The notes under the pieces were generated by a model that saw only the letters and a program-made list of their open reading frames with translations, ran no database searches and was not told the origin of the DNA. The position numbers and the translations under genes were made by a program. A stretch of 64,000 nt of DNA from assembly GCF_016743815.1 (NCBI RefSeq), contig NZ_CP061035.1:3226501-3290500 (forward strand), given 5' to 3'. This DNA is from Sphingomonas aliaeris. GTDB taxonomy: Bacteria > Pseudomonadota > Alphaproteobacteria > Sphingomonadales > Sphingomonadaceae. This document shows, piece after piece, positions 47,310-63,778 of this stretch. How positions within the stretch are numbered: position 1 is the first letter of the stretch; every line of letters starts with the position of its first letter.

Positions 47310-48145
47310 TGCCGTTGCGCGATCATTTGAGGAGCCGGCTCGTCGGGGAAGTCCGGGCGATCTTCAACGACAAAAATCGCGGCGAGCAACCGGTGCAGCG
47401 CCGCGACGACGGCCTGTTCGGCCCCGGATCCGCCGCCTGGACGGTGCATGGCGACGTGACGACGATGATGGTCGGCGGCGTCGCGGCATTGCTGTTGCAG
47501 ATGCTCCACCCGGCGGTGCTGGCCGGCGTCTGGGATCATAGCGAGTTCCGCAAGGACATGCTGGGGCGGCTGCGGCGGACGGCACGCTTCATCGCCGTGA
47601 CGACGTTCGGTGCGCGTGACGATGCCGAGGCCGCGATCGAGCGGGTGCGATCGATCCACACCTATGTCTCCGGCACGCTGGCCGATGGCACGCCGTATCG
47701 CGCCGACGATCCCCGGCTGCTCGCCTGGGTGCATGTGACGGAGATGACGAGCTTTCTCGATGCGTGGCTGATGTATGGCGATCCCAGGATGTCGCTGGCG
47801 GATCAGGATCGGTATTTCGCCGAAACCGCACGGATCGCGCGCGATCTGGGGGCGGACCCCGTGCCGACCACCAAGGCCGAGGCGCTGGCGCTGATCGCCG
47901 AGATGCGGCCCGAACTGAAAGTGGATGCACGCACGCGGGAAGTGGCCCGCATCGTCCTGACGCAGCGCGCGCCGAAGCTCGCGGCGCAACCCGTACAGGC
48001 GATGACGTTCCAGGCGGCAGTCGACCTGTTGCCGCATTGGGCGCGCGAGATGCACGGGCTGCATGCATCGACATTGGGACGGCCATTGGTGTCGGCGGGG
48101 ACGCTGGGGCTGGCCAAGACGTTGCGCTGGGCGTTCCACGGCTGA
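47309..48145 (+). CDS. DUF2236 (MpaB-like) oxygenase-family protein
   Basis: The 278-residue protein overlaps the preceding stop by one base. [20 protein letters not shown] is the conserved His-containing helix of DUF2236, RSIHTYVSG the second His motif and [14 protein letters not shown] the third; together they bind heme b in characterised relatives such as MpaB and Lcp. The natural reaction is unknown. Its place between the osmolyte transporter and the rut genes has no clear meaning. Confidence 0.88.
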
Positions 48146-48203
48146 GGGCTACCACGCGCTTTCACCCTTGCGAAGCGCGCAGGCCCGCCGCAGACTTGCC
48201 CCC

Positions 48204-48932
<729 letters not shown>

Positions 48933-48965
48933 TCCCCCGCCCCCGCTTTAGTCTCCGGAGACAGC

Positions 48966-49349
48966 ATGCCGTTCGAACCGATCAATCCGCCGCAATTCCC
49001 AACGCCGATCGCGCCCTATTCCGCCGGGGCGAAGGCGGGCAATACGGTCTATGTTTCGGGTGTGCTGGCGCTGGGCGAAGGCGGCACGGTGTTGCATGTC
49101 GGCGATGCCGCAGCACAGACGCGCCACATATTGGACGTCATCAAGATCACGCTGGAGGCGGGCGGCGCGACGCTGGAGGATGTGGCGATGAACCATATCT
49201 TCCTGAAGGATCTGGCCGATTATGCCGCGTTCAACGCGGTCTATGCCGAGTATTTTCCGGGCGCGAAGCCGGCGCGCTATTGCATCAAATGCGATCTGGT
49301 GAAGCCCGATTGCCTGGTCGAGATCGCTTCCGTGGCGCATATCGGTTGA
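48966..49349 (+). CDS. rutC: Aminoacrylate peracid reductase/deaminase RutC (RidA family)
   Basis: The 127-residue protein is a YjgF/RidA-type trimer subunit. [40 protein letters not shown] and [20 protein letters not shown] match RutC. It converts aminoacrylate or its peracid in the uracil pathway. Starts 33 bases after rutB. Confidence 0.93.
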
Positions 49350-49390
49350 GCGCCTTCCCGCTTCGTCACCCCTGCGCATCGGACGGTTAG

Positions 49391-50170
49391 TTGGCGGAGG
49401 CTGGTGGGCTGTATTACGAGGAGCATGGCAGCGGGCCGCCGCTGATCCTGTCTTCGGGGCTGGGCGGGTCGGCGGGATATTGGGCGCCGAACCTGTCTGC
49501 GCTGGCGGAGCATTTCCGCGTCATCGCCTATGATCATCGCGGCACGGGGCGCAGCGACCGCACCGTCCCGAGGGGCGGGACCGGCGTGGCGGGCATGGCG
49601 GCGGACGTCGTGGCGCTGATGGATGCCCTCGCGATCAAGCGGGCCGACTTTGTCGGGCATGCGTTGGGCGGGATGATCGGGCTGGAAACGGCGATCTCAG
49701 CCGGGCGGATCGACCGGCTCGTCGTCATCAACGGCTGGGTCGAACTGGATGCACATACACAGCGATGTTTCGACGTACGGCTGACGCTGTTGCGCGACAG
49801 CGGGGCGGAGGCGTTCCTGCACGCACAGCCTCTATTCCTCTATCCGCCCGACTGGATATCGTCGCACGATGCGGAGTTGCGGGCCGAGGCGGCGCACCAA
49901 CTGGCGCATTTCGCCGGCGCGGAAACGACCCGGCGCCGCATCGACGCGGTGCGGTCCTACGTGCCCGATCTGGTACGGATGTGCGACATTCCGGCGCTGC
50001 TCGCGCTCGCGACGCGCGACGACATGCTCGTGCCGATGCAGCGGTCGCTGGACGTCGCCGCGCACGTACCCGGCGCCAGAACCGCGACGTTCGACTGGGG
50101 CGGCCATGCCTGCAATGTCACCGATCCGGACACTTTCAACCGCCTCGTCCTCGATTTCCTCAGGAGCTGA
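49391..50170 (+). CDS. rutD: RutD, alpha/beta hydrolase-fold protein of uracil breakdown
   Basis: The 259-residue protein begins at TTG 49391 ([20 protein letters not shown] follows). The oxyanion region is GLGGSAGYW and the elbow reads [11 protein letters not shown], with Ala where a Ser nucleophile would be; the E. coli RutD has the same HALG, as I recall, so this is normal for the family. It is thought to speed hydrolysis of aminoacrylate. C-terminal His in [18 protein letters not shown]. Confidence 0.92.
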
Positions 50171-50172
50171 AC

Positions 50173-51249
50173 ATGCAAGTCGGTGTTTTCGTCCCCATCA
50201 ACAACAATGGCTGGCTGATCAGCGAAAACGCACCGCAATATAAGCCGAGCTTCGACCTCAACAAACAGATCGCGCAGTCGGCGGAGAAGCACGGCCTGGA
50301 TTTCCTGCTGTCGATGATCAAGCTGCGCGGTTTTGGCGGGAAGACCGAATTTTGGGAATATGGACTGGAAAGCTTCACGCTGATGGCCGGGCTGGCCGCG
50401 GTGACCGAGCGGATCAAGATCTACGCCACTTGCCCCACGCTGATCATCCCCCCGGCCTTTGCCGCGCGGATGTGTAACACGATCGATTCGATCAGCCACG
50501 GCCGGTTCGGTTTGAACCTGATCACGGGGTGGCAGCGACCGGAATATAGCCAGATGGGTTTGTGGCCGGGGGACGAGCATTTCCGCAACCGCTACAAGAT
50601 GCTCGACGAATATGCCCAGATCCTGCGCGAATGCTGGGAGACGGGCGGCTCCGATCTGAAGGGCGAATACTATCAGATGGACGACTGCCGCGTGAAGCCG
50701 CAGCCGACCGGCGACATGAAGATCATCTGCGCGGGGTCGTCCGAAGAGGGGCTGGCCTTCTCCGCGAAGTGGGCGGATTACGCCTTCTGTCTGGGCAAGG
50801 GCGTCAACACGCCGACCGCCTTTTCATCGAACAACGACAAGCTGGCCGCCGCGACCGCGAAGACCGGTCGCGACGTGTCGATCTTCGTCCTCGTCATGGT
50901 CATCGCCGCCGAGACGGACGAAGAAGCGATGGCGAAGTGGAAATCCTACAATGACGGCGTCGATCTGGAGGCGATCGCCTGGCTCGCGGATCAGGGCGCG
51001 GTGGACAAGCATAACAAGGACACCAACGTCCGGCAGCTTGCCGCGCCCGAAGGTGCGGTCAACATCAACATGGGCACGCTGGTCGGCAGCTACGAAAGCG
51101 TCGCGCGGATGCTGGACGAGATGGCCGCAGTGCCGAACACCGGCGGCGTGCTGCTGACGTTCGACGATTTCGTCGAGGGGGTCGAGGCGTTCGGCACGCG
51201 GATCCAGCCGCTGATGAAATGCCGGGAGCATATCACAGCGGCGGAATGA
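50173..51249 (+). CDS. rutA: Pyrimidine monooxygenase RutA
   Basis: This 358-residue flavin-dependent enzyme opens the uracil ring using FMNH2 and oxygen. The N-terminus [20 protein letters not shown] and motifs [40 protein letters not shown] and [19 protein letters not shown] are close to RutA. It is last in the order B-C-D-A; E. coli has A first. The flavin reductase RutF that RutA needs is not in this window. Confidence 0.95.
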
Positions 51250-51259
51250 AACTCCGGCG

Positions 51260-51871
51260 CTACCCTTCCAGGCAATCGCGCAGGTTGCCGAGGGGCAGCG
51301 GGGTCGAAAAGTGCATGCCGAATGCGTTGCCCTCGACCCAGCGGACGGTGCCGAACAGGCATATCTGGTGACCGGGCAGCAGGATCTGTCCGGTCTGTCC
51401 GGGTTCGACCGCGACGTTTGCCTCCAGCCGGACGCCGCCGGGGGAGATGTTCGAGATCTTCGCCTTGAACTGGCGTCCGGACAGCCGGACCACGGCATCG
51501 AGCGTGACGTCGAAGCGCGGTGCGCGCGCGATTTGCCCGTCATCGCTCGTCTGGCAGAATACGGGTTCCAGATTCTGCTTTTCTACGAATTGCATGCCGG
51601 CCTTCATGCCGTTGACCCAACGGACATGCGCGGTGCACCGGGGCAAGCCGCGAAGCTCGATCTCCAGCGCCTGCCCGACGGCGGGCGTGAAGCTCATCCG
51701 TGCCATCAGTCCGTATTCGGACAGGTTGAGCACGAGACAGGCATTGTCGTTCATGCCGTCATTGACCTTTCCGATCAGCAATACCGTCGAGGCGCGCGCA
51801 GCTTCGCGGCGGTCGACATTGGCGGACGGTACGGTCTGGGGTGAAGGGATTGTTTGGTAGAACATGATCAT
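51260..51871 (-). CDS. Tandem PilZ-domain protein
   Basis: The 203-residue protein holds two PilZ-like domains. The first has the complete c-di-GMP signature, RxxxR at R22-R26 and NLSEYG at 49-54. The second starts RAPRF at 116-120 with a shortened arginine motif and has NISPGG at 141-146. It is the last gene of the DUF11 operon and overlaps the gene before it (ATGA). It probably links that surface system, or another process, to c-di-GMP. Confidence 0.85.
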   Translation of the reverse strand: MIMFYQTIPSPQTVPSANVDRREAARASTVLLIGKVNDGMNDNACLVLNLSEYGLMARMSFTPAVGQALEIELRGLPRCTAHVRWVNGMKAGMQFVEKQNLEPVFCQTSDDGQIARAPRFDVTLDAVVRLSGRQFKAKISNISPGGVRLEANVAVEPGQTGQILLPGHQICLFGTVRWVEGNAFGMHFSTPLPLGNLRDCLEG

Positions 51872-52167
51872 ACATTCCTTTCACTTGATCGCGCGAACCA
51901 GCGATCTTCGGGATGAATTGAGGTGAGGCGCGGATCCGGTGTCATCGCGCGGAGCATTCGTGCGCGGAACTTCACCCGTTGCCAGAATGTCGCGTCCTTA
52001 AGACGCCACTGCCGGATCGCCTCGCAACAGAAGGATTCGATCAGTTCCTCGCTTTCTTGCCGGTCGCGCAGCGCGAAGCTGGCGGCCAGCTCCTCGAGCG
52101 CGGCGACCTGATCGGCCTCGGGCGGGGTGCGCATCGACTGCAACCCATTTGGATAGAAGCTCATCAT
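51868..52167 (-). CDS. Small hypothetical protein of the DUF11 operon (99 aa)
   Basis: A soluble, helical 99-residue protein beginning MMSFYPNGLQSMRTPPEADQ, with acidic helices (ELAASFALRDRQESEELIES) followed by a basic half. No signal peptide. Its stop overlaps the PilZ start and its start is five bases from the DUF11 gene upstream, so it is cotranscribed. No family recognised; it may partner the PilZ protein. Confidence 0.7.
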   Translation of the reverse strand: MMSFYPNGLQSMRTPPEADQVAALEELAASFALRDRQESEELIESFCCEAIRQWRLKDATFWQRVKFRARMLRAMTPDPRLTSIHPEDRWFARSSERNV

Positions 52168-52172
52168 CTCTC

Positions 52173-52682
52173 CTATCTCAGCATGACGCGATACCGAAGG
52201 CGGAAGGCGCCGCCGGTGGTCATGATGCCGTTGCTCATCGTCACGCGGATGCCGCGGACCTTGCCGTCATATCCCGTACCGTCGTCCTGCGGCAGATAGG
52301 TCCAGGTGACGCCGTCGGAATATTCGATGCTGCCATAGGTCAGGCCACTCGACAGCAATTGCAGGCCGAGCAACGTGCCGTTGGTGAATTCGACCGCGGT
52401 GGAGCCGCTGCCGTAGGGAAGAACGCGGAACTTTACCGTCGCCGGGATGACGTCCTCGATCACGACGTGGCGGATCGTGACGAGGTTCAGCAAGGGATTG
52501 GTCGCGACGAGCGAATAGTCGATCGTCGCGCCCGGCAGGTTGCGCGCGGGGGTGAGCGTATTGACCTGATCTCCGACGATCGTGCTGGTCTTGTCGACAT
52601 TCAGATCGGCGGCGATGGCCGGCGTGGTCATGACCAGCGCGGCAATCAGCGCGAGGATCATCCGGAGTGAAAGCGGGGTCAC
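52173..52682 (-). CDS. Secreted DUF11-like protein (169 aa)
   Basis: The protein starts at GTG 52682, overlapping the stop of the giant gene (GTGA). MTPLSLRMILALIAALVMTT is a signal peptide (to about residue 24). The mature part is a single DUF11-type beta sandwich: LNVDKTSTIVGDQVNTL, LPGATIDYSLVATNP, VVIEDVIPATVKFRVLP, close to one in the 372-residue protein at 57794. It ends in basic RLRYRVMLR. Probably a partner of the other DUF11 proteins of the operon. Confidence 0.82.
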   Translation of the reverse strand: MTPLSLRMILALIAALVMTTPAIAADLNVDKTSTIVGDQVNTLTPARNLPGATIDYSLVATNPLLNLVTIRHVVIEDVIPATVKFRVLPYGSGSTAVEFTNGTLLGLQLLSSGLTYGSIEYSDGVTWTYLPQDDGTGYDGKVRGIRVTMSNGIMTTGGAFRLRYRVMLR

Positions 52683-55600
52683 TTCCGTCCTCCAAAGATC
52701 GCGCGGGTAGTGTTGCCAATGGTCCGCTGGTCGAATTTCATCCGCATCGTGATGTACGGGCCGTGCCGGGTGTAGCGATCATCCTCGAAGTCGCGATCGC
52801 GATAGCCGGCGACGTTGTAGCCGCCCGTGATCCAGACATTCTTCGCCGGCGAGACACCGATCGACGGGCCGCCGCTGAACGCCACCGCGCCGCGATCCCA
52901 GGCGTGCTGGACCGAGCCCTGCATGCCGATGTCGAAGCGGGTGCCGATGTCCTTGCGCAGTTCGAAGCCGGTGACGTGGATATACCCGGTATAAATGTCG
53001 TCCTGAAACCGTCCGCGCACATATTTGGAGCCATAATAGAGGGTCGCTTCGAAGCCGTGCCCGTTGCCCTCGGGGCCGGAGCGATAGTTGATCGCGAGAT
53101 TGTTGATCGCGCGGCTGGTGACCTGATCGCCCGCCCCATAGGCCGGGACACCCAGATTGTTGCCGGCGGAGAAGCCGGCATCAGCGCCTTCGTGGCGCAG
53201 TTCGAAGCGTTCCAAGATGGACCAGCGGCTGTCGAAGGGGCGCAGCGCGATGGCGAGATCCGCCGAGGCATAGGTGCCCGATGCACCACCCGCGTCCGTC
53301 GTCCGATAAGCGCGGATCGAGGATGCGAGCGTCTGACCCTCGCCGAGCGAGCGCAGGAAGTTGGTCGTGAGGCCGAGCCGCTTGTCAGCGGCGGCGTCGC
53401 GATATTCGATCCGCCCGTTCCACGACCAGCGATTGGCACGATAGGCCGCGCTGAGCGTGGCGGCGGTAAAGCTGCCGGTGCTGCCCGTATTGCCGAAGCC
53501 CCCCGTGGTCGAGGACGAAACCGAGCCGATCGAGCCGCCCGACGCGACCGGCTGGAAAGGATTGATCACCGCACCGGTCGGGACGCGCCCGCTGATCGTC
53601 GAGGCGGCATCGAGCGTGGCGTCGAACGTCCAGTGCTTGCCGACCGGCAGCGACTGGCTGAGGCCGTATTGCGCGAAGGTGCGGCCGCCATTTTCGGCCA
53701 CGGCCTGCTGGTTGAGCGTGCTCATCAGCTTGGCACCGGTCCAGGGCGCGACGTCGAAACCGATCTGCTTGGTATGGACGACGAATTCCTGGCCGTTCGC
53801 GATTTCGTATCCGCCGATCAGGCGGATGCCGGGCGTGATGCGATAGGCCGCGGTCAACTGGTGACGGATCGGGAAGTCGACGCTGTCCTTGTCCCCGCCC
53901 GGCGCGAACTGGGTCTGGCCGGACACGGTCAGGTCGCCGCCGAACAGGATCTGGCTGCCACCGAGGGTGAGCAGGCGGGAGTCGCGATCCTTGCCGTCGC
54001 GGCCACGATCCATCGCCACCTGGGCGCCGATGAAGACGGTGCCGGTGTCGCGGCGATATTCGAGCCGCATATCGCCGGCGGTGCGCGTGCCCGGCCCTTC
54101 CAGCTGCTGCTGGTGCCAGGCCGAGCCGGTCAGGTTGAGCCGGCCGGATAGATGGACCTTGCCGTCGAAGCCGAACTTGCGCGTCCCCGCCTCAACCAGA
54201 TTCTGCTGGCCAAGACCGAAGCTGGCATCCTGTTGCCGGGCATAAGCGAGCACGTCGGCGACCGGGCCGTGATGCTCGACCTCCGCGGTATAGGCCTGGC
54301 CATCGCGCAGTCCGCCGCGCCCGCCGGTCGCCGCTTCGGCGCGCAGCAGCGTGCTGGTGGTGAGTTTTGCCTTCAGGTCCACGCCCGCAACGGTGGCGAC
54401 GCCGACGGTTTCGTCGCGAATGCCGCTGACGCCGACTTCGACGCGGCCCTGCGCAAGCTTCGCGGCGACGCGGGCGGCGGCGACCAGCTTGCCGCTGCGA
54501 CCGCCGTCGACTTCGTAATCGGCGACGATGAAGACCGGGTTGAGGTCCAGATCGCGGCTGAGCACGGGTTCGCGGAAGCGGATCGTGCCAGCGACGATAT
54601 CGATGTCATAGTCGATGTGGCGAGCGAGTTCGCGGCTGGAGACGATCAGTTCGGAACGGAAGCGGTTGCGCACCTCGATCCGCAACTTGTCGCTGTTCGG
54701 CACGATGTTGCGGCCCGACAGGCGATACGGACCGCTGAGGCCGTTGCCCTGGATCTCGTCGCGCGAATACAGAGTGTCGGTGGTAGCAGCGAAGCCCGTC
54801 GCGCGCAGTTTCGTGCCTTCGTATGCCGCCTTCAGGCCGTTCAGCGTGCGGCTGTAGCGGGTGAGTTGCGTGTCGGTGAAGCCGGTTTCGAAGTCGCCGA
54901 AAAGAGCGTAGAATTCGCGGCGTTCGAGACGCAGGTACAGCTTGCGCCGGGTGGCCGCGTCATAGCCCTGCTGCGAGCCGTCGCCATAGACGGTGTAATA
55001 GCGGTCGGGATCGATCGTGCCGAGCAGCCCGCGCGTCGGATCGTACTTCCGGTCGCTGTCATAGGCGATCGTCAGCAACCACGATCCTTTGACTCGACCC
55101 TTGGCATAGAAGCTCAACTGGCCGTCCGTGACGACCTTGCCGCGTTCGGCGACGGGCAGGCCGGACGAATGCTTGCGCAGCGTGTCGTAGCCGATCGTAC
55201 CCGATCCGAAGCCGACGACCATCCAGTCCTTCTGCGCACCCGACAGCCAAGCGCGGATCTCGCTGGTACGGGTGATCTTCTCATCGGTCAGCGCGATCTT
55301 GATCTGGACGGCACCGGCCTGCGTCGTGGGCTGCAGCGCAAGGAACGCGATGCCATCGTCGCCGACGACGCGCGCAGTGGTGGCGGCGCGATCGCGCCCG
55401 GCAAGCTGGCGGCCCTGTTCGAGTTCGGCCTGCACCGCGGCGGTGTAGGGCTGATCGACTGTGAAGGGGACGACGGTGCCGGCATGGACCGGACGCCCAT
55501 CCCTGTCGGTGACGCGCACCGCGATCAGCGGGCGCGTGAGGCCGTCGGCGACGAGGCGGCTTTGCGCGGCGTCATAGACCGCGTTCGCGGCGGTTCCGGA

Positions 55601-57718
55601 CACGCCGACGGTGCGGGCAATCGTCTGAACCTCACGCCCATCGGCGGACAGAATGCGCGCGACGAGCTGGTTCGTGCCCGATCGCAGCGGGAGGCCGGAC
55701 CAGCGCGACACGGCGACACCGGTGCTGTCGTTCACATCGGTACCGTCGAAGGCGAGCGCATCGCCGCGGACGCCGTTGATCGTCAGCGCGACATTCTGCC
55801 CCGGCAGGTGCTTGACGACGACCCGGGTGACCGGCGCACGGGGATTGTAGGTTTCGGTCGGGAAAAGCATTGCGATGCCCGGCGTCTGGCCCGTGAGCCA
55901 GTCGCGATTGCCCGCGGCGGTGGCGTCGTCGATCTGGGTGACCGGCAAGTCCGCCAGGGAAGATACGGACTTGCCGGTCGGACGGAGCTGAAAGTCTACG
56001 CGCTTCAACAGTCCGCCATCTGCTTCGACGAAGCGCGAGATCGCGCTTCCGGCCTGTCGTGTATCGACATCGCACGCGACCGCTTCATGGGAAGCGGGGA
56101 TGCTGGCAGTGTCGAGTTGCACGACGTGACGGCCTGGGCGTACGCCCTCGATATGGTACAATCCGTCGCGATCGGTGACGACGAACGTGCCGTCCTCCAT
56201 CAACAGGCGGATTCCGGCTATCCCTTTGCGATGGCTGTCGGGATCGCCGCAATTTCCTTCGCTGACACGACCGATGATAGTCATCGCATCGGTGAAGAGC
56301 AGGCTGCGCAGGCGCACGGAGGCCATCGCTTCGTTGCTTTGAGCATTGGCGCCGAGCACGCGGGCGCGGTTCAGCGCCTCGCCCTGCGGCGCACCGGGCG
56401 CGATACTGACGACGTAACGGAGTTCTGCCGTGCCGCCCGCCGCGATCGACGGAATGGTGAAATCCAGCGTGCGTCCATCGGTCGCGACCCTGGGTTCCGC
56501 CCCGCCCCGCGTCGATCCGCGTTCGTAGCGGAGGCCGGCGGGCAAAACGTCCGAAACGTGTAGCTCGCGCGCCGCCAGAGTATCCCGGTTGGTTATCTGC
56601 AGCCGGTATTGCACGAAGTCGCCCGGCGATGCCTCGCGCACCGACGCCGCCTTGGTCAACAACAGCGCGGCGCTCGTCGGCCGATCGAGCGGGATATCGA
56701 CATAGAAGGGATCGGGTTCCGCCAGCGTCAGCCATCCGCCGAAGCTGGTCGGGTTGATGATGAAGGGCTGGCCCGTGGGGTCGCGCAAGGCGGCGATGAC
56801 GGCCGGGTCCTGTACCGAGGGTGCGGTATAGTCGCCGGGGGGCTCGATCCGCAGCGAATAGGTACCGGGCGCGGCGAGCGGGAAGCGGAAGCGACCCGGA
56901 CGACCGGGATAAATACGCCCGCTGCTGTCAGTGACGGTTTCGCCGCTGATGACGGTGGAGGGATAGCGCGAGACGCCGTCATCGCCGTAGACCTGCGCCG
57001 GGTTGCCCGCCGTGTCGACCAGCGTCACGCGCGTGCCGTCGACCAGCGCGCCGGTGCGGGAATCGAACGTGAAGCCCGCTGGATCGATCAACAAAGACGC
57101 GCTGGAACCGAAGCTGAAGCCGTCTTCGATAAAGCTGAGCTTGATCGTGACGCCGCGTTTCGTCCGAACATCGCAGGGTACCAGATCGGGATATTTCCCG
57201 GTCATGGAGGCCGGAACGCCGCCCGCGAAGACGCCCGTATCGGGCCCGGTTTCCACCAGGGTCAGCGTGGTGTGGATCGGCCCCGCGTCGACATCGATGA
57301 CGGCGTTTTCGCGGGTCAGTGGATCGCGATTGCTGCCCTCGCTGTCGAGGGCGAGGATCAGGTCGGTATGGATGTCGATCGTCTCGACCAAAGGCGCCGC
57401 CGCATAGTCCGCAGCATCGATCGGTGCAGGCGTGAAGGTAGGGATGGGCGAGCCTTTGCAGGCCATGCCCGTCATCTCGTACTTCATCGGCGTGAGATGG
57501 AAACTGAGCGAGGTCGGACGCTTAGTGCGCGTGACGTCGAGCGAAACAGTGTTCGATGGCACGATGCGGTGACCATCGCCAACCGTATAGGTTAGCGATG
57601 CTGTGTTGGTCACGCGCCCCGGGCCCATCTGGGGCACCTGGGCCCGGAGCGCGGTGACGCTGCTCGACAGGCCGAGGACAAGGGCGCTGACGCGCGCAAG
57701 AGTGCGGAAACTGGACAT
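52679..57718 (-). CDS. Giant surface protein: DUF11 and SdrD/CNA-B-like domains plus predicted outer-membrane barrel (1679 aa)
   Basis: A signal peptide (about 1-26) is followed by a motif shared with two operon partners (GRVTNTASLTYTVGDGHRIV, about 34-63), then beta-rich domains, a DUF11 domain (about 355-470: TKAASVREASPGDFVQYRLQ, HVSDVLPAGLRYERGST), a CNA-B/carboxypeptidase-regulatory-like domain (about 480-545: GIRLLMEDGTFVVTDRDGLY) and Ig-like parts. From about residue 830 alternating amphipathic strands (LYLRLERREFYALFGDFETG, GWLLTIAYDSDRKYDP-like) run to the end, as in a large outer-membrane barrel. The last residues are FGGRK, not an aromatic terminal residue. Likely a surface adhesin or anchor; this is inference from domains. 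Confidence 0.8.
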   Translation of the reverse strand: MSSFRTLARVSALVLGLSSSVTALRAQVPQMGPGRVTNTASLTYTVGDGHRIVPSNTVSLDVTRTKRPTSLSFHLTPMKYEMTGMACKGSPIPTFTPAPIDAADYAAAPLVETIDIHTDLILALDSEGSNRDPLTRENAVIDVDAGPIHTTLTLVETGPDTGVFAGGVPASMTGKYPDLVPCDVRTKRGVTIKLSFIEDGFSFGSSASLLIDPAGFTFDSRTGALVDGTRVTLVDTAGNPAQVYGDDGVSRYPSTVISGETVTDSSGRIYPGRPGRFRFPLAAPGTYSLRIEPPGDYTAPSVQDPAVIAALRDPTGQPFIINPTSFGGWLTLAEPDPFYVDIPLDRPTSAALLLTKAASVREASPGDFVQYRLQITNRDTLAARELHVSDVLPAGLRYERGSTRGGAEPRVATDGRTLDFTIPSIAAGGTAELRYVVSIAPGAPQGEALNRARVLGANAQSNEAMASVRLRSLLFTDAMTIIGRVSEGNCGDPDSHRKGIAGIRLLMEDGTFVVTDRDGLYHIEGVRPGRHVVQLDTASIPASHEAVACDVDTRQAGSAISRFVEADGGLLKRVDFQLRPTGKSVSSLADLPVTQIDDATAAGNRDWLTGQTPGIAMLFPTETYNPRAPVTRVVVKHLPGQNVALTINGVRGDALAFDGTDVNDSTGVAVSRWSGLPLRSGTNQLVARILSADGREVQTIARTVGVSGTAANAVYDAAQSRLVADGLTRPLIAVRVTDRDGRPVHAGTVVPFTVDQPYTAAVQAELEQGRQLAGRDRAATTARVVGDDGIAFLALQPTTQAGAVQIKIALTDEKITRTSEIRAWLSGAQKDWMVVGFGSGTIGYDTLRKHSSGLPVAERGKVVTDGQLSFYAKGRVKGSWLLTIAYDSDRKYDPTRGLLGTIDPDRYYTVYGDGSQQGYDAATRRKLYLRLERREFYALFGDFETGFTDTQLTRYSRTLNGLKAAYEGTKLRATGFAATTDTLYSRDEIQGNGLSGPYRLSGRNIVPNSDKLRIEVRNRFRSELIVSSRELARHIDYDIDIVAGTIRFREPVLSRDLDLNPVFIVADYEVDGGRSGKLVAAARVAAKLAQGRVEVGVSGIRDETVGVATVAGVDLKAKLTTSTLLRAEAATGGRGGLRDGQAYTAEVEHHGPVADVLAYARQQDASFGLGQQNLVEAGTRKFGFDGKVHLSGRLNLTGSAWHQQQLEGPGTRTAGDMRLEYRRDTGTVFIGAQVAMDRGRDGKDRDSRLLTLGGSQILFGGDLTVSGQTQFAPGGDKDSVDFPIRHQLTAAYRITPGIRLIGGYEIANGQEFVVHTKQIGFDVAPWTGAKLMSTLNQQAVAENGGRTFAQYGLSQSLPVGKHWTFDATLDAASTISGRVPTGAVINPFQPVASGGSIGSVSSSTTGGFGNTGSTGSFTAATLSAAYRANRWSWNGRIEYRDAAADKRLGLTTNFLRSLGEGQTLASSIRAYRTTDAGGASGTYASADLAIALRPFDSRWSILERFELRHEGADAGFSAGNNLGVPAYGAGDQVTSRAINNLAINYRSGPEGNGHGFEATLYYGSKYVRGRFQDDIYTGYIHVTGFELRKDIGTRFDIGMQGSVQHAWDRGAVAFSGGPSIGVSPAKNVWITGGYNVAGYRDRDFEDDRYTRHGPYITMRMKFDQRTIGNTTRAIFGGRK

Positions 57719-57793
57719 AAGGGGGTGCTGTCCGGCGCACGGGGGTTTCCCGCGCGCCGGCTGGCAAAGTTCCTTTTCGGTAAGGGCGTCTGT

Positions 57794-58912
57794 TTAGTTG
57801 ATCGTGACCTGGAAGCTGACCGCCATCGACGTACTGCCCAACAGGGTCGGGATCGACGCGGTCACCGTTTTGGTCGTCGCGTTGAACGATCCGCCATACG
57901 GACTGAGCGGGACGGCCGACCCGTCGTCATTCGCGGCGAACCCGCCAAGAATGCAGACGCCGCCCGTGCCGAGACCGCCGATCCGGATCGATCCCGGAAC
58001 ATAGGTGGTGTTCGTCGGGATCACGTCGGTCAGCGTGATGCCGTTTGCCGGGACGAGCAGGCTGCTATTCTGGATCGTCAGGCAATATTGCACCGTCGCG
58101 CCGGGGATGGCCTTCGGCGCGATCAGATTGACGTTGTCCGTCACGACCGCCGACGTTTTCGTAATGCTGAGATTGGCGGTGCGTGCGCCGACTTCATATT
58201 GCAGGTAGGCGCGGGCCTGTCCGTTGCGCGCCGCGTCATAGCCGAGCAATCCGTCGGTATCGGCATCGGCAAAGACGATATCCTGATCGGCATTCTGGTT
58301 GAGCAGATTGAGATCGGTCGCGACGAGCGCCTGCCCCGCCGTCCCCGTCGCGCCGCCGATCGCGACCTGCGCATTCAGCGAGACCGAGGCGTAGTTCGCC
58401 GACGTGGTGTTGGGTACATCGGCGACGACGAAGACCAACGCCGAGGCGTCGGGCAACATCTCGTCCAGATACGTCACGAGCTGGTCCTGCGCGTCCCATT
58501 GGCCGTTCGTGTTGGAATCGACATAGATGCGGACGTTGCCGACATCGTAATTGTCCGTTCCCGTGCCGCCGGCGCCGAGGATCTGGCTGGTCGTCAGCAG
58601 CATGTCCTGTGTGCCGTTGGTATTGTTCGTCACGCGGAACGCCATCACCGCGTTGGACTGGCCGAGATTGACGATCGTGTTGGTGTTGGGGTCGGCAGCG
58701 ACGGTGACGTTGACCTTGCGGTCGACGACGAAGGTCGACAGGTTCGATTGCACGCTCGCCGGCGTGCCGTTGACGGTATAGGTGGCGTTCGCCTGGTTGC
58801 TGATGACCGTGCCGGCGGACGTGGTCTGCGCATACGCAGCCCCGCCGACACCGAACGTCGCGACCGCGGTCGTTCCCGACAGCAGAAGTCGCCGCATCCC
58901 TTTTGCAGTCAT
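57794..58912 (-). CDS. Secreted DUF11-like protein (372 aa)
   Basis: The ATG at 58912 follows ACGGAGTATCTTCA. MTAKGMRRLLLSGTTAVATF leads a signal peptide ending AYA. The mature start shares the motif of two neighbours: TVISNQANATYTVNGTPASV then QSNLSTFVV. A central part is Asn/Thr/Asp-rich with VRIYVDSNTNGQWDAQDQLV, a calcium-type loop, and the C-terminal domain is DUF11 (LSITKTSAVVTDNVNL, PGATVQYCLTIQNSS, TDVIPTNTTYVPGS). An earlier ATG at 58966 overlaps the previous stop (ATGA) and is possible. The gap to the giant gene is 75 bases. Confidence 0.82.
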   Translation of the reverse strand: MTAKGMRRLLLSGTTAVATFGVGGAAYAQTTSAGTVISNQANATYTVNGTPASVQSNLSTFVVDRKVNVTVAADPNTNTIVNLGQSNAVMAFRVTNNTNGTQDMLLTTSQILGAGGTGTDNYDVGNVRIYVDSNTNGQWDAQDQLVTYLDEMLPDASALVFVVADVPNTTSANYASVSLNAQVAIGGATGTAGQALVATDLNLLNQNADQDIVFADADTDGLLGYDAARNGQARAYLQYEVGARTANLSITKTSAVVTDNVNLIAPKAIPGATVQYCLTIQNSSLLVPANGITLTDVIPTNTTYVPGSIRIGGLGTGGVCILGGFAANDDGSAVPLSPYGGSFNATTKTVTASIPTLLGSTSMAVSFQVTIN

Positions 58913-58962
58913 TGAAGATACTCCGTTGAAAATGGTGTGTGGGTTGGGGTTGAGGGTGGTGG

Positions 58963-59439
58963 TCATTTGATGACGGCCTGGAATGCGAGTTGGCCTTGCG
59001 CGCCGGCCGCCACCGGACTTGCGAGGCGCCACCGGACGGTGGTGACATCGTCAGGCACCGCCGCGCGCGAAGTCCCGGCGGCAGTCGCCACGCGGAGGCC
59101 GGACAGCGGGCCGAAAGTCTTGCCGTCGACCGAAAGCTCAGGTGCGGCGGAACCGGGATTGGCGGCGCGATAGGCGATGTTCGCCGGCACCGGATTCGCG
59201 AGGACGAGGTTCGCGATCGGCTGCGTGCCGGTGTTGCGATAAGTGAGGACGAAGACGACGCGGTCGCCGGGGACGATCTTGTCCGCCTTGACCAATGCGA
59301 TGCGCGTCGTGCCGTCGGCGGCAGCGACACGCTTCTCCGTCTTGACTTCGCTGACCAGCGACAGCGGGCCGGCGGCATAGGCCGCGGTGGCGGAGATGGC
59401 CGCGACGGCGGCGGCGGCGGCGATGATATGCAGGCGCAT
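58963..59439 (-). CDS. Secreted DUF11-like protein (158 aa)
   Basis: The ATG at 59439 follows GAGGAGTCATCAG, a strong ribosome site; an ATG at 59454 overlaps the stop upstream. MRLHIIAAAAAVAAISATAA is the signal peptide. The mature protein is one beta-sandwich domain: KIVPGDRVVFVLTYRNTGTQ, NPVPANIAYRAANPGSAAPE, and ends VRWRLASPVAAGAQGQLAFQ. It lacks the shared N-terminal motif of its larger neighbours. Third-smallest of five DUF11-type proteins in this operon. Confidence 0.8.
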   Translation of the reverse strand: MRLHIIAAAAAVAAISATAAYAAGPLSLVSEVKTEKRVAAADGTTRIALVKADKIVPGDRVVFVLTYRNTGTQPIANLVLANPVPANIAYRAANPGSAAPELSVDGKTFGPLSGLRVATAAGTSRAAVPDDVTTVRWRLASPVAAGAQGQLAFQAVIK

Positions 59440-59450
59440 CTGATGACTCC

Positions 59451-60422
59451 TCATTGAATCCGGACCTTGAACTTGATGGTGTGGATGACGGGATCGACCG
59501 GCGCGCCGAGCGCGACCGCGATGGCCGAGGCGGTCGCGGTTCCGGCATCGCCGTCCGCGCCGTCGGTCAGCGATGCACCGTCGAGCATCAGGCTGCCGGG
59601 CACGTAGCTGGTACCCGCAGGGATCGGATCGTCGACGCGGACGCCGCTGGACGGGCCCGGGATGCTGGCGGTGAGCGTGTAGGTGATGACCGCGCCGCTG
59701 ACCGCGCTGGCGGATCCGTCCGCCGCCAGGACCGACTGGGTCTTGACCAGGGATCCCTGTGCCGCCTGGCCGATCGTGGGGACGATGATCTGCCCCTGTG
59801 CGCCGGTCGGACCGACCAGTGCGTCGCCGCCGCCATCGCCCCGGCCGGGGAATGCGGTGCCGGGCGAACCGCTGCCGGTGACCGCGCGGGCGACGATGAC
59901 GTTCTGTACGCCGTCGAACTGCCCCTCGTCGCCGATCAACAGCAGCTGGAGTTGTGCGCCGGGCGCTATCGAGGGCGTGATCGCGCTAGCCAGCAGTTGA
60001 TCGCGCGCGGCGTCGTAGCGGCCGTCGCCATCCACATCGATCGCGAAGCGCGATGGCGGCGTGTCGGTGCCGTCGGTGGCGGACAGGGCGAATGCCTCCT
60101 GCCCATTGCCACGATTGGTGACGACGAGCCCGATCGATGTCGTCGCCGGGGTGATCGGTTCGTTGCCACGCCGGGCGAGCGCTATGTCGAGCCGCTCCGC
60201 CACCACTGTCGTCACCGTATTCGACTGTGCGGCGATCGGCTGACCGGCAATATCATAGCGCAGGGCGGCAGTATTGGGGATCGGCGTTCCGGCAGTCGTC
60301 TCGGCCCGCGCGGAGCTGGATACTATTGCGACCGTTCCGGCCAGCATCGACGCGACACACGACTTCACACACGGGCGCCTGAACCCGTTTGATCCTGTAA
60401 CGATGTGAAGGCGTGCGCGCAT
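59451..60422 (-). CDS. Secreted DUF11-like protein, first gene of the operon (323 aa)
   Basis: The 323-residue protein has an unusual long N-terminal region before its signal core (CVASMLAGTVAIVSSSARA, cleaved near 40). The mature start, TPIPNTAALRYDIAGQPIAA then QSNTVTTVV, is the motif shared with the 372- and 1679-residue proteins. FAIDVDGDGRYDAARDQLL is a calcium-type loop; the C-terminal DUF11 domain includes SAVSGAVITYTLTASIPGPS and VDDPIPAGTSYVPGSLMLDG. Stop overlaps the next gene (ATGA). No membrane barrel. Confidence 0.82.
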   Translation of the reverse strand: MRARLHIVTGSNGFRRPCVKSCVASMLAGTVAIVSSSARAETTAGTPIPNTAALRYDIAGQPIAAQSNTVTTVVAERLDIALARRGNEPITPATTSIGLVVTNRGNGQEAFALSATDGTDTPPSRFAIDVDGDGRYDAARDQLLASAITPSIAPGAQLQLLLIGDEGQFDGVQNVIVARAVTGSGSPGTAFPGRGDGGGDALVGPTGAQGQIIVPTIGQAAQGSLVKTQSVLAADGSASAVSGAVITYTLTASIPGPSSGVRVDDPIPAGTSYVPGSLMLDGASLTDGADGDAGTATASAIAVALGAPVDPVIHTIKFKVRIQ

Positions 60423-60674: not shown

Positions 60675-61142
60675 TCAACCGATCGTGACGTCCTTTAAAT
60701 AGTTGACCATCGCGGCATGCCCCCGCTCGCTAAGCGAGATGTCGATACGGCGGCGATCGATCGTGTCGGTGACGCGGTCGATCAGGCCGGACTTGTGGAG
60801 ATGGTCGATCCAGCGCTGCGAGGTGGTCGCGGGGGCATCGCTACACGACACGAGCTGCTTCACATTCATCGTGTGCTCGCCTTCGTAGATGATGAACAAT
60901 GCCATCAGCATTTCCCAGGCGGGTTCGTGGAACAGGTCGGACGGGAAGTATTTACGCCGTGCCTTGCGCGACGCAATGATCCCTCGCGCCCGCGCGACGA
61001 GGTCGGGCGGACCGTCCGACGGGGCAATACCGGGCGCCGGGCGGCTCGACGAGATGATCTGATCGGCGCGTACGCCGAATTCCCCGGCGATGCTGCCGAG
61101 CTTCGCGCTGAAATCCCGTATGAGGTCCTCGACCGTTTCCAT
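60675..61142 (-). CDS. MarR-type winged-helix regulator upstream of the DUF11 operon
   Basis: This 155-residue protein has an N-terminal extension and a winged helix in the C-terminal half: WEMLMALFIIYEGEHTMNVK, QLVSCSDAPATTSQRWIDHL (recognition helix) and DRRRIDISLSERGHAAM (wing). It fits MarR proteins. It is transcribed in the same direction as the DUF11 operon, 252 bases ahead of it; that gap must hold the operon's promoter. The predicted role, control of that operon, rests on position. Confidence 0.82.
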   Translation of the reverse strand: METVEDLIRDFSAKLGSIAGEFGVRADQIISSSRPAPGIAPSDGPPDLVARARGIIASRKARRKYFPSDLFHEPAWEMLMALFIIYEGEHTMNVKQLVSCSDAPATTSQRWIDHLHKSGLIDRVTDTIDRRRIDISLSERGHAAMVNYLKDVTIG

Positions 61143-61795: not shown

Positions 61796-61946
61796 CTGTT
61801 CACGCTTCGTAACTCGCTGATAACCGGCGTAGAATGCGGCCGGCGCCGCGAAGGTGGCAGCCCGACCAATATCCGCTATTGAACGGACACCGCGACGCGC
61901 GAAGCCGTGCGGGCGGGTGGTCGCGGGAATTTCGGAAGGGGTTAGA

Positions 61947-62873
61947 ATGTTTTCCTATCTCATCTCCGGATTGTCGGTCGAAAGCGACTTGACCCTGCCG
62001 GGGCTGATCGCCTTGCCCGACCCGCCGGATGCGCATGACGTCCGGTTGCACGCCGGTTCCGTGCCGCAGGAAATGGACGGCGCGGTGAACATCGGACCGA
62101 ACTGGCAGATCGCGCCCGATCGCTTCACGATGACCGTACCGAATATCGTCCGCATGCTGATCACGGACGGTCGCGATATGACGTACGAGCTGCTCGACGG
62201 GACCTCCGCGACCGATGCGGCGATCTTTCTGAGCGGAACGGGGTTCGGCATCCTGTTGCATCAGCGTGGCCGCATCGTCCTGCATGCGAGCGCCGTACGC
62301 GTGCAGGATCAGGCGGTGCTGTTCTGCGGACAATCCGGCGCGGGCAAATCGACGCTGGCGGCGGCGCTGGTCGAGGCCGGATACGATCTCGTGACCGACG
62401 ATTTCTGCGGCATCACGATGCGCGACGATGGCACGCCCTGGGTCGAGCCGGACGGGCGGCAGTTGAAGCTGTGGCAGAATTCGATCGACCGGCTGGCGCT
62501 CGCCGATCGAACCACCGCCCCGGTGCGCACGCACCTCGAGAAATTCTATGTCGAGCCACGCACCGTCATCTCCGCACCGCTGCCGCTCGCCGCGGTCTAT
62601 ATCCTGCGCGAGGCCCGCCCGCCCGATCCACCCGGAATAGAGCGGCCGAACATCGTCGACGGCGCGCTGCTGATCCGGAGCAACGCCTATCGGCCGTTGA
62701 TGGTAGAACGGATGGATCAACAGGCGCTGTATTTTCATGCGGCGGCGACGATCGGCCAGCGGTCTGGCGTCTTCACGCTGACCCGCGCGATGGACTTCGA
62801 GCGATTCCCGACAGTGATCGGTTGGCTGGAGGATCATTGGCGGACGCTGGGCCTGCTGGAGCAGGCGGCTTGA
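61947..62873 (+). CDS. HprK-like serine kinase family protein
   Basis: The ATG at 61947 follows GGAAGGGGTTAGA. The 308-residue protein has a P-loop GQSGAGKST (128-136), a second acidic motif LVTDDFCGI and the ATP-binding fold of HPr kinase/phosphorylase, but lacks the N-terminal HPr-binding domain. Relatives in lasso-peptide clusters phosphorylate the C-terminal residue of the precursor. It overlaps the sulfotransferase gene (TTGA), which in turn overlaps a PqqD-like gene, so the three are one operon. Confidence 0.88.
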   Translation: MFSYLISGLSVESDLTLPGLIALPDPPDAHDVRLHAGSVPQEMDGAVNIGPNWQIAPDRFTMTVPNIVRMLITDGRDMTYELLDGTSATDAAIFLSGTGFGILLHQRGRIVLHASAVRVQDQAVLFCGQSGAGKSTLAAALVEAGYDLVTDDFCGITMRDDGTPWVEPDGRQLKLWQNSIDRLALADRTTAPVRTHLEKFYVEPRTVISAPLPLAAVYILREARPPDPPGIERPNIVDGALLIRSNAYRPLMVERMDQQALYFHAAATIGQRSGVFTLTRAMDFERFPTVIGWLEDHWRTLGLLEQAA

Positions 62874-63778
62874 CCGATATCGTCTGGCTCGCCTCCTATC
62901 CGAAATCGGGCAACACCTGGTTCCGGATGCTGGTGGCCAATGTGCGGCAGGACAAGCCGGTCGATATCAACGCCTTGCCCGACAGTGTCGGCATCGTGAG
63001 CGCGCGGACATGGTTCGACCATATCATGCTGTTCCCATCGGGTTTGCTGACGCACGAGGAAATCGACCGGCTTCGTCCGAACCTCCATCGTACGATGGCT
63101 GCCGATCTGATGCCGCCGGACCCCGCGGATAAGACGGACACGCGCCTTGGCGCGAAGCGGTTCATCAAGACGCACGATGCCTACACCTATACCGCCGACG
63201 GGGAGCCGTTGCTGGGCGGACGCGCGGCGGCGGCGTGCGCGATCCTGATCGTCCGCGATCCGCGCGACGTGGCGGCGTCCCTGGCGCATCATATCGGAAG
63301 GACGGTCGATCAGGCGATCGACTTCATGGGATCGCAAGACGCCGACTTTTCCGGGCGGCGCGACCGGCAGCACAAGCAGTTGCGCCAGCTCCTGCCGACC
63401 TGGGGCGGCTATAATAGAGGGTGGATCGAGCAAGGCGACATTCCGGTGCATGTGGTGCGGTATGAAGATCTGAAGGCCGATACGCCGGGCGTCCTGCGCC
63501 ATGCGTTGGTCTTTGCGGGGGTCGAGGTGAGCGAGGCTGAATGCGAGCGCGCGGCGCGCTTTGCCGATTTCGATGCGCTGAAAAAGCAGGAGGCCGAAAA
63601 AGGTTTTCGCGAAGGGGCCCGCGCGGTGCCAGCCTCTCGATTTTTCAGGCGTGGCGTGGCGGGGGGCTGGCGCGATGAACTGAACCCTGCCCAGGTCGCG
63701 CGGATCGAGGCGGATCATGCTGTGACGATGAGACATTTCGGTTATTATCCGGACGGTTACGAAAGGATGACGGGATGA
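62870..63778 (+). CDS. Sulfotransferase of a probable RiPP cluster
   Basis: The TTG at 62870 overlaps the kinase stop. The 302-residue enzyme has the PAPS 5'-phosphosulfate motif LASYPKSGNTWFRM and the 3'-phosphate motif ILIVRDPRDVAASLAHH, so it should move sulfate from PAPS to a hydroxyl. The C-terminus has VPASRFFRRGVAGGWRDEL and HFGYYPDGYE, the usual end of such enzymes. Between an HprK-like kinase and a PqqD-like protein, a peptide substrate is plausible but unproven. Confidence 0.9.
   Translation: MTDIVWLASYPKSGNTWFRMLVANVRQDKPVDINALPDSVGIVSARTWFDHIMLFPSGLLTHEEIDRLRPNLHRTMAADLMPPDPADKTDTRLGAKRFIKTHDAYTYTADGEPLLGGRAAAACAILIVRDPRDVAASLAHHIGRTVDQAIDFMGSQDADFSGRRDRQHKQLRQLLPTWGGYNRGWIEQGDIPVHVVRYEDLKADTPGVLRHALVFAGVEVSEAECERAARFADFDALKKQEAEKGFREGARAVPASRFFRRGVAGGWRDELNPAQVARIEADHAVTMRHFGYYPDGYERMTG

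Follow-up and report, generated by a model that had tools for sequence, protein, structure and literature searches.

In chaperone-usher pili, an incomplete Ig-like (immunoglobulin-like) domain is completed by a donor, an acceptor-only tip carries a binding domain, and an outer-membrane barrel serves as the base. The type V pili of Bacteroidota likewise have an incomplete Ig-like domain that a donor completes, together with a lipobox and a protease-mediated strand exchange. SpyTag/SpyCatcher and the RrgA fragments are said to be isopeptide domains cut in the laboratory, the halves of which rejoin covalently. The nearest published principle to the one proposed here is an archaeal thread (PMC9715654, PMC11607397). 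In the available text of PMC9715654, this thread (Saci_0406) is held together by head-to-tail donor-strand complementation through a single N-terminal strand, with a proposed intermolecular isopeptide bond from the N-terminal amino group to an Asn at n/n+2, and no chaperone-usher pathway is known for it. The DUF11 domain, renamed CLIPPER, is described in fibrillar adhesins as forming a Lys-Asn bond for which an Asp is presumed to be catalytic (Costa et al. 2025, PMC12617251). According to the accessible part of the same source, the bonded residues of CnaA-like domains are located on the first and penultimate strands; no split form is described there, and the word "split" is absent from the main text. 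DUF11 was also reported in an anchor of spore appendages (PMC11952670, available portion).

In the present work, a 64,000-nucleotide (nt) stretch of Sphingomonas aliaeris, contig NZ_CP061035.1 (the window), was analysed. At positions 51260-60422 it contains seven genes on the reverse strand, in the order A-B-C-D-E-F-PilZ running from 60422 down. It seems probable that proteins A to E form a surface chain that is anchored by D and assembled between molecules via split CLIPPER domains. The arrangement of the seven genes given in the original prediction was confirmed; neighbouring genes overlap by 4 nt or are separated by no more than 75 nt. With the DUF11-type repeat model TIGR01451, the matches of A, B, C and D exceeded the cut-off and that of E fell short of it, and the cut-off of Pfam DUF11 (PF01345) was passed by D alone among the window proteins. 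For DUF11/CLIPPER membership, both a sequence match and a CnaA-like fold were found.

The complete DUF11 domain inside D (residues 346-478) was used for comparison. It matched the solved CLIPPER domain 9IFR with an E value of 0.0067, and its Lys356, Asp390 and Asn450 stand opposite the Lys, Asp and Asn of 9IFR, which are numbered 715, 748 and 806 in the paper and 10, 44 and 101 when counted along the printed chain (off by one at Asp). In profile comparisons with the domain of D, proteins A, B and C matched up to column 94 of 133, where the chain stops, and E up to column 71. The acceptors of A, B, C and E were found to be devoid of the last two DUF11 strands, and the same closing beta-strand pattern was observed at the extreme C-terminus (A 30/30, B 29/36, C 31/33, E 14/14). 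The tail absent from the acceptors has the form G-x-x-x-N-x-A ... S-N-x-V, and the same form occurs just after the signal peptides of A, C and D. The hairpins at these N-termini resemble each other, with profile probabilities of 97-98. The plain hairpin pattern was present in 27/30 A, 13/33 C and 33/46 D proteins and in none of the 36 B and 14 E proteins. A hairpin profile recovered 29/29 A, 31/32 C and 39/44 D proteins by construction, having been built from those N-termini, a circularity that counts against these matches; its informative part is the result for B (0/35) and E (0/14).

The completion of the acceptors was evaluated with two models. With the Pfam model, appending the D hairpin raised the score of C from 20.7 to 29.3 bits, of B from 21.1 to 29.0 and of A from 18.9 to 25.9, the cut-off being 24.6. 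The second model was derived from 111 complete DUF11 domains, each followed by more than 40 residues, and only family matches above 80 bits were used; locus L104 (broken genes) and D open reading frames (ORFs) shorter than 1400 amino acids were left out of this test. Nine pairings of A, B and C acceptors with A, C and D donors, at 28-32 loci each, scored a median of 7.1-9.7 bits higher than the acceptor by itself. True donors scored better than all 20 shuffles in 21-29 loci, and the gain with control segments of 42 residues from inside D was about 0 (95th percentile 2.8-4.2). This indicates, at the level of sequence, that the acceptors and the hairpins are complementary halves of one DUF11 domain.

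A composite of the C acceptor and the D hairpin was also predicted with AlphaFold. The model matched CLIPPER 9IFR over 118 of 123 residues at 2.4 Å, and the D hairpin was aligned within the domain of C, its pLDDT (predicted local distance difference test) being 59 at its end. Structural matches were taken from single-domain rows; SpaD and BcpA were not used as structural relatives, as their top rows spanned the whole model at a root-mean-square deviation (rmsd) of 18-19 Å. The composite sequence found a chance match only in the PDB. The predicted model indicates that the hairpin of D completes the DUF11 domain of C.

The residues of the isopeptide triad are distributed over both halves. In the family alignments, the acceptor Lys and Asp were each present in 30/30 A and 33/33 C proteins, and in E the Lys was found in 12/13 and the Asp in 11/13. 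The donor Asn was conserved in 29/30 A, 32/33 C and 40/44 D proteins. Hidden Markov model (HMM) alignments showed the Asn column supplied by the donor in 296/308 chimeras, and Asp was reached in 29/29 A, 32/32 C and 12/14 E. Because acceptor Lys and Asp and donor Asn together make the CLIPPER triad, the joints of A, C and E may be covalent, and from these residues it is probable that they weld by an intermolecular Lys-Asn isopeptide bond. In B, Asn replaces the Asp in 30/34 proteins and the Lys is not conserved; most joints made by B are thus expected to lack the covalent bond.

The earlier prediction of an outer-membrane barrel in D holds, with 32-39 predicted strands. The whole protein gave no sequence match in the PDB at E values up to 1, and the structural comparison of the barrel revealed no convincing relative among the families listed. 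The longest alignment among the matches listed was with SprA, of the type 9 translocon (6h3i; 441 residues, rmsd 11.6 Å, 7% identity). A very large barrel is common to both, whereas the gene context differs and no homology has been demonstrated. An OmpA-family gene comes after D in locus L006 and on an Acinetobacter plasmid, and this neighbour perhaps ties D to peptidoglycan.

Some E-type proteins carry swapped N-terminal domains, namely Ice_binding in L089 (E 2e-60), SCPU in L005 and L037, and a P-domain match in L093; the other E-type proteins scanned showed no N-terminal family match. In L089 (606-1817), where the ice-binding domain is fused to a DUF11-type acceptor, the protein may be a tip that adheres to ice. 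In 9 of 15 D-bearing genomes a lone E-type gene, coding for about 330-410 amino acids, was detected; eight of the nine lie far from the operon and one about 4 kb away (G020). No E-type match was obtained in any of 24 genomes of the same genus without D, of which 19 are at least 90% complete (9/15 vs 0/24, one-sided Fisher 2e-5 with relatedness ignored). SCPU was found in all five lone proteins scanned out of the nine, the copy of the window genome falling below the cut-off. That copy, about 33 kb past the end of the window (L131, 5677-6906), is a lone SCPU-like acceptor gene and a candidate second tip; the one neighbour scanned encodes a chemotaxis-type protein. A place of the lone SCPU tips in chaperone-usher operons was considered; none of the four neighbouring ORFs scanned matched a chaperone or usher family. 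The variety of N-terminal domains suggests that E-type proteins fit the role of tips.

The operon is real, conserved and mechanistically legible. Seven of the eight named relatives found belong to Sphingomonas, Novosphingobium or Sphingomonas-like bacteria, and the eighth comes from a Methylotenera bin. In a first set, D was present in 15 of 61 genomes (own genome counted; all one genus). With the barrel part as query, matches came from 9 of 240 genomes in a class sample and from 44 of 299 in a phylum sample, many of them partial. The 45 neighbourhoods inspected comprised 7 of the 8 named-relative loci, 15 places from the first set, 20 from the samples and 3 plasmid matches; L008, on a short contig, was left out of this set. 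Counts were taken over the 43 loci with a D longer than 1400 amino acids in a single ORF, which excludes L091 and L104; they are not independent, as several loci end at contig edges and many genomes are related. The order A-B-C was found upstream of D in 28/43 loci, a B relative upstream of D in 38/43 and an E-type gene adjoining the set in 19/43. The number and length of the shaft-type subunits differ among loci.

Related sets with B-type and A- or D-type proteins were found on plasmids of Deinococcus ficus, Synechococcus NIES-970, Kovacikia and Pacificitalea, with E values of 7e-19 to 1e-21 for the B-type matches within the small protein sets scanned. A generic DUF11-like query gave no plasmid matches. 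On the Deinococcus ficus plasmid (L123), the role of D is divided between adjacent genes for a 928-residue donor protein and a 1049-residue protein that partly matches the D profile. Relatives occur beyond the sphingomonads, in other Proteobacteria, Deinococcota and Cyanobacteriota. Plasmid p4 of Acinetobacter haemolyticus (L102) carries D, OmpA and tip-type genes; its shaft-type genes look fragmented, and arsenic-resistance genes lie nearby.

In the last gene of the operon, two PilZ stretches were matched with Pfam. Of the motifs for c-di-GMP (cyclic di-GMP), the first domain keeps RxxxR and NxSxxG and the second NxSxxG only. A relative of this protein stands beside D in 9 of the 43 loci, all from sphingomonads, a count that covers relatives of the window protein and would pass over unlike PilZ proteins. 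A tenth, weak match was found in L104, a Novosphingobium plasmid with a broken D. The remaining 34 loci, including every non-sphingomonad locus, have no such relative beside D. No convincing PilZ match was obtained among selected proteins (not every ORF) of Deinococcus, Synechococcus, Pacificitalea and Acinetobacter or among the Kovacikia ORFs. A relative of F was beside D in 6/43 loci, again all sphingomonads; family-profile searches gave no convincing match for F. The original prediction had suggested that the system could be tied to c-di-GMP, an idea that was to count as weakened if related clusters lacked the PilZ gene and the small proteins. With these gene-order counts the c-di-GMP part is weakened, and as a general feature it did not stand. 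PilZ as a core component was rejected on the locus count. Where present, it probably tunes the use of the system via c-di-GMP, and it may thus regulate the system in some sphingomonads.

The following assembly is proposed. D is donor-only, B and E are acceptor-only and A and C are two-sided, hence D would end the chain and an E-type protein would start it. Following export by Sec, a subunit with a donor hairpin would use it to complete the acceptor of the next one. A and C would act as link subunits, and E together with its unlinked SCPU-type relatives, with acceptor only and a variable N-terminal domain, as tips. Each joint of A, C and E would seal itself by the Lys-Asn bond. B, in which the bond residues are mostly absent, could be a non-covalent cap or placeholder on a free donor. 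D, with its donor and barrel, would be the base that closes the chain at the membrane; its barrel would hold it in the outer membrane and could plausibly serve as the channel for export. The envelope-anchored fibre with a barrel that was put forward originally fits these data well and gains from them a mechanism, assembly by split DUF11; the fibre itself, its covalency and its export through D are what we still infer. The wider proposal of self-welding fibres throughout diderms, that is, a split-CLIPPER polymer sealed by Lys-Asn bonds, exported by and ending on D, which supplies the last donor hairpin, with interchangeable ice-binding, SCPU and other tips, some encoded elsewhere in the genome, and with B capping donors until they are used, is offered as a tentative possibility.

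Several results weigh against this interpretation. With the Pfam model, the A hairpin added 2.7 bits to C and no more, and the C hairpin abolished the DUF11 match of its own acceptor, like a reversed control, and added 0 to B; since the C hairpin was null or negative and the A hairpin slight, only the D hairpin was clear in this test. With the second model, the gain of some internal controls equalled that of true donors (maxima 8.4-12.5), and the E pairings were weaker (2.7-6.1 bits, n 12-14). In hhalign comparisons of the A, C and D hairpins with the tail of the DUF11 of D, no significant match was obtained and other D windows scored higher. The partners in the predicted composite were tethered by a read-through linker, its pTM (predicted template modelling score) was 0.60, and the alignment had only 15 rows. 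The HMM alignments often stop short of the Lys column, which showed K in 22/32 C, 11/29 A and 4/14 E, and they placed a Lys in 8/33 B acceptors, three of which also have the Asp. The lone SCPU tip-type proteins, on a reading of their sequences, seem to be without the Lys/Asp pair.

The negative hhalign result, the partly negative Pfam-model test and the shortness of the segments would suit an explanation by convergence, in which the hairpins are ordinary parts of their own N-terminal domains and resemble the DUF11 tail as short beta-rich sequence. This is regarded as very improbable: the A, C and D hairpins are alike, and yet what comes next in D is, by its sequence, a different domain from the one in A and C; no gain was seen with most of the shuffled and internal segments; and the predicted model places the hairpin in the domain of C. 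Alternatively, each hairpin could close on the C-terminal domain of its own chain, so that A and C would be ring-closed monomers and separate adhesins around the barrel protein. Both halves are indeed present in A and in C, and chimeras of A with A or of C with C show gains close to those of mixed pairs. However, D has no acceptor and B and E have no donor, and these at least would have to pair between chains; own-chain closure as the sole use of the hairpins was rejected because of these one-sided proteins, and the explanation is given hardly any weight.

If the halves do pair between proteins, the product could still be a short complex of fixed make-up in the envelope, such as B/E-A-C-D with one copy of each, a coat or a barrel accessory, and not a polymerising fibre. 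The few distinct subunits per locus are in line with this, the acceptor-only B is the most widespread small gene, and the copy number is not fixed by any feature of the sequence. Against it, A and C are both two-sided and could polymerise, binding-type domains are present on some tip-type E proteins, and different loci have shaft-type subunits of different number and length; a fixed complex is considered unlikely. A matrix or fibre controlled by c-di-GMP, with PilZ as an integral part, is likewise judged improbable: the 4-nt overlap of the PilZ gene with F in the window and the nine loci with a relative beside D speak for it, and the absence of that relative from the other 34 speaks against it. 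A D-anchored chain joined through split domains remains the preferred explanation.

Compared with the CLIPPER adhesins as set out in the accessible part of PMC12617251, the domain and the Lys/Asp/Asn triad are the same, as would be the bond between first and penultimate strands, 9IFR being the matching solved domain. In those adhesins the domain and its bond lie inside one chain, whereas in the present operon a second chain would contribute the penultimate and last strands. With the archaeal thread, as described in the available text of PMC9715654, the system would share the head-to-tail complementation, the intermolecular isopeptide bond and the lack of a known chaperone-usher pathway. It would differ in its fold, in the two-strand hairpin, in a Lys-Asn-Asp triad at n/n+1 and in the outer-membrane anchor. 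Among the seven window proteins, no PapD-like chaperone or usher family was detected with Pfam at E values up to 1, and a lipobox was not seen in the N-termini of A-E on inspection by eye. Unlike in chaperone-usher and type V pili, the donor takes the form of a hairpin, and the protein at the base has a donor of its own. The likeness to chaperone-usher donor completion is one of similar working, taken from the predicted hairpin fit, with no kinship demonstrated. SpyTag/SpyCatcher is an engineered split, whereas here the split would be natural and would serve assembly. No description of a DUF11/barrel split-domain system was found in the literature searched, with subscription papers and preprints mostly outside the coverage. 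The principles, donor-strand completion and isopeptide bonds, have precedents; for the whole system none was found.

The coordinates of the features are collected in Table 1. Just upstream of A, at 60675-61142 on the reverse strand, lies a gene that looks by eye like a MarR-like regulator, a possible regulator of the operon; a relative was found upstream in 8 of 22 loci. The genes at 48063-51249 on the forward strand (isochorismatase-like, RidA-like, alpha/beta hydrolase and luciferase-like) are taken by us to resemble the pyrimidine-degradation rut operon. At 61854-63778, also on the forward strand, there are presumably an HPr-kinase-like protein with a P-loop and then a sulfotransferase-like protein.

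Table 1 Genes and domain halves of the operon, with positions in the window
Feature	Position	Strand	Description
Gene A	59451..60422	-	323 amino acids; secreted shaft-type subunit, N-terminal donor hairpin and C-terminal acceptor DUF11
A donor hairpin	60189..60302	-	residues 41-78; conserved Asn50
A acceptor DUF11	59454..59756	-	residues 223-323; Lys227, Asp265; without last hairpin
Gene B	58963..59454	-	163 or 158 amino acids; acceptor-only, DUF11-like, Lys/Asp pair mostly absent
Gene C	57794..58912	-	372 amino acids; shaft-type subunit, donor and acceptor
C donor hairpin	58712..58825	-	residues 30-67; Asn39
C acceptor DUF11	57797..58180	-	residues 245-372; Lys252, Asp296
Gene D	52679..57718	-	1679 amino acids; donor hairpin, Ig-like domains, predicted C-terminal giant outer-membrane barrel
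D donor hairpin	57515..57640	-	residues 27-68; Asn38
D internal complete DUF11	56285..56683	-	residues 346-478; Lys356, Asp390, Asn450; yardstick for the split copies
D barrel domain	52682..55231	-	residues 830-1679
Gene E	52173..52682	-	169 amino acids; acceptor-only, tip-type protein
Gene F	51868..52167	-	99 amino acids; small protein, lineage-specific
PilZ gene	51260..51871	-	203 amino acids; tandem PilZ, lineage-specific

If the proposal is correct, the surface fibre encoded by the operon would be of a new kind, possibly one that welds itself, and its class would have no evident common ancestry with the chaperone-usher, type IV, type V or curli systems. The principle of SpyTag/SpyCatcher would then be at work in nature, and such loci would be a source of split-domain parts for protein ligation. 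To test the roles of the donor, acceptor and tip genes directly, it would be enough to mutate a single Lys, a single Asp and a single Asn. For the DUF11/CLIPPER-rich operons of environmental diderms, a mechanism would thereby be provided.

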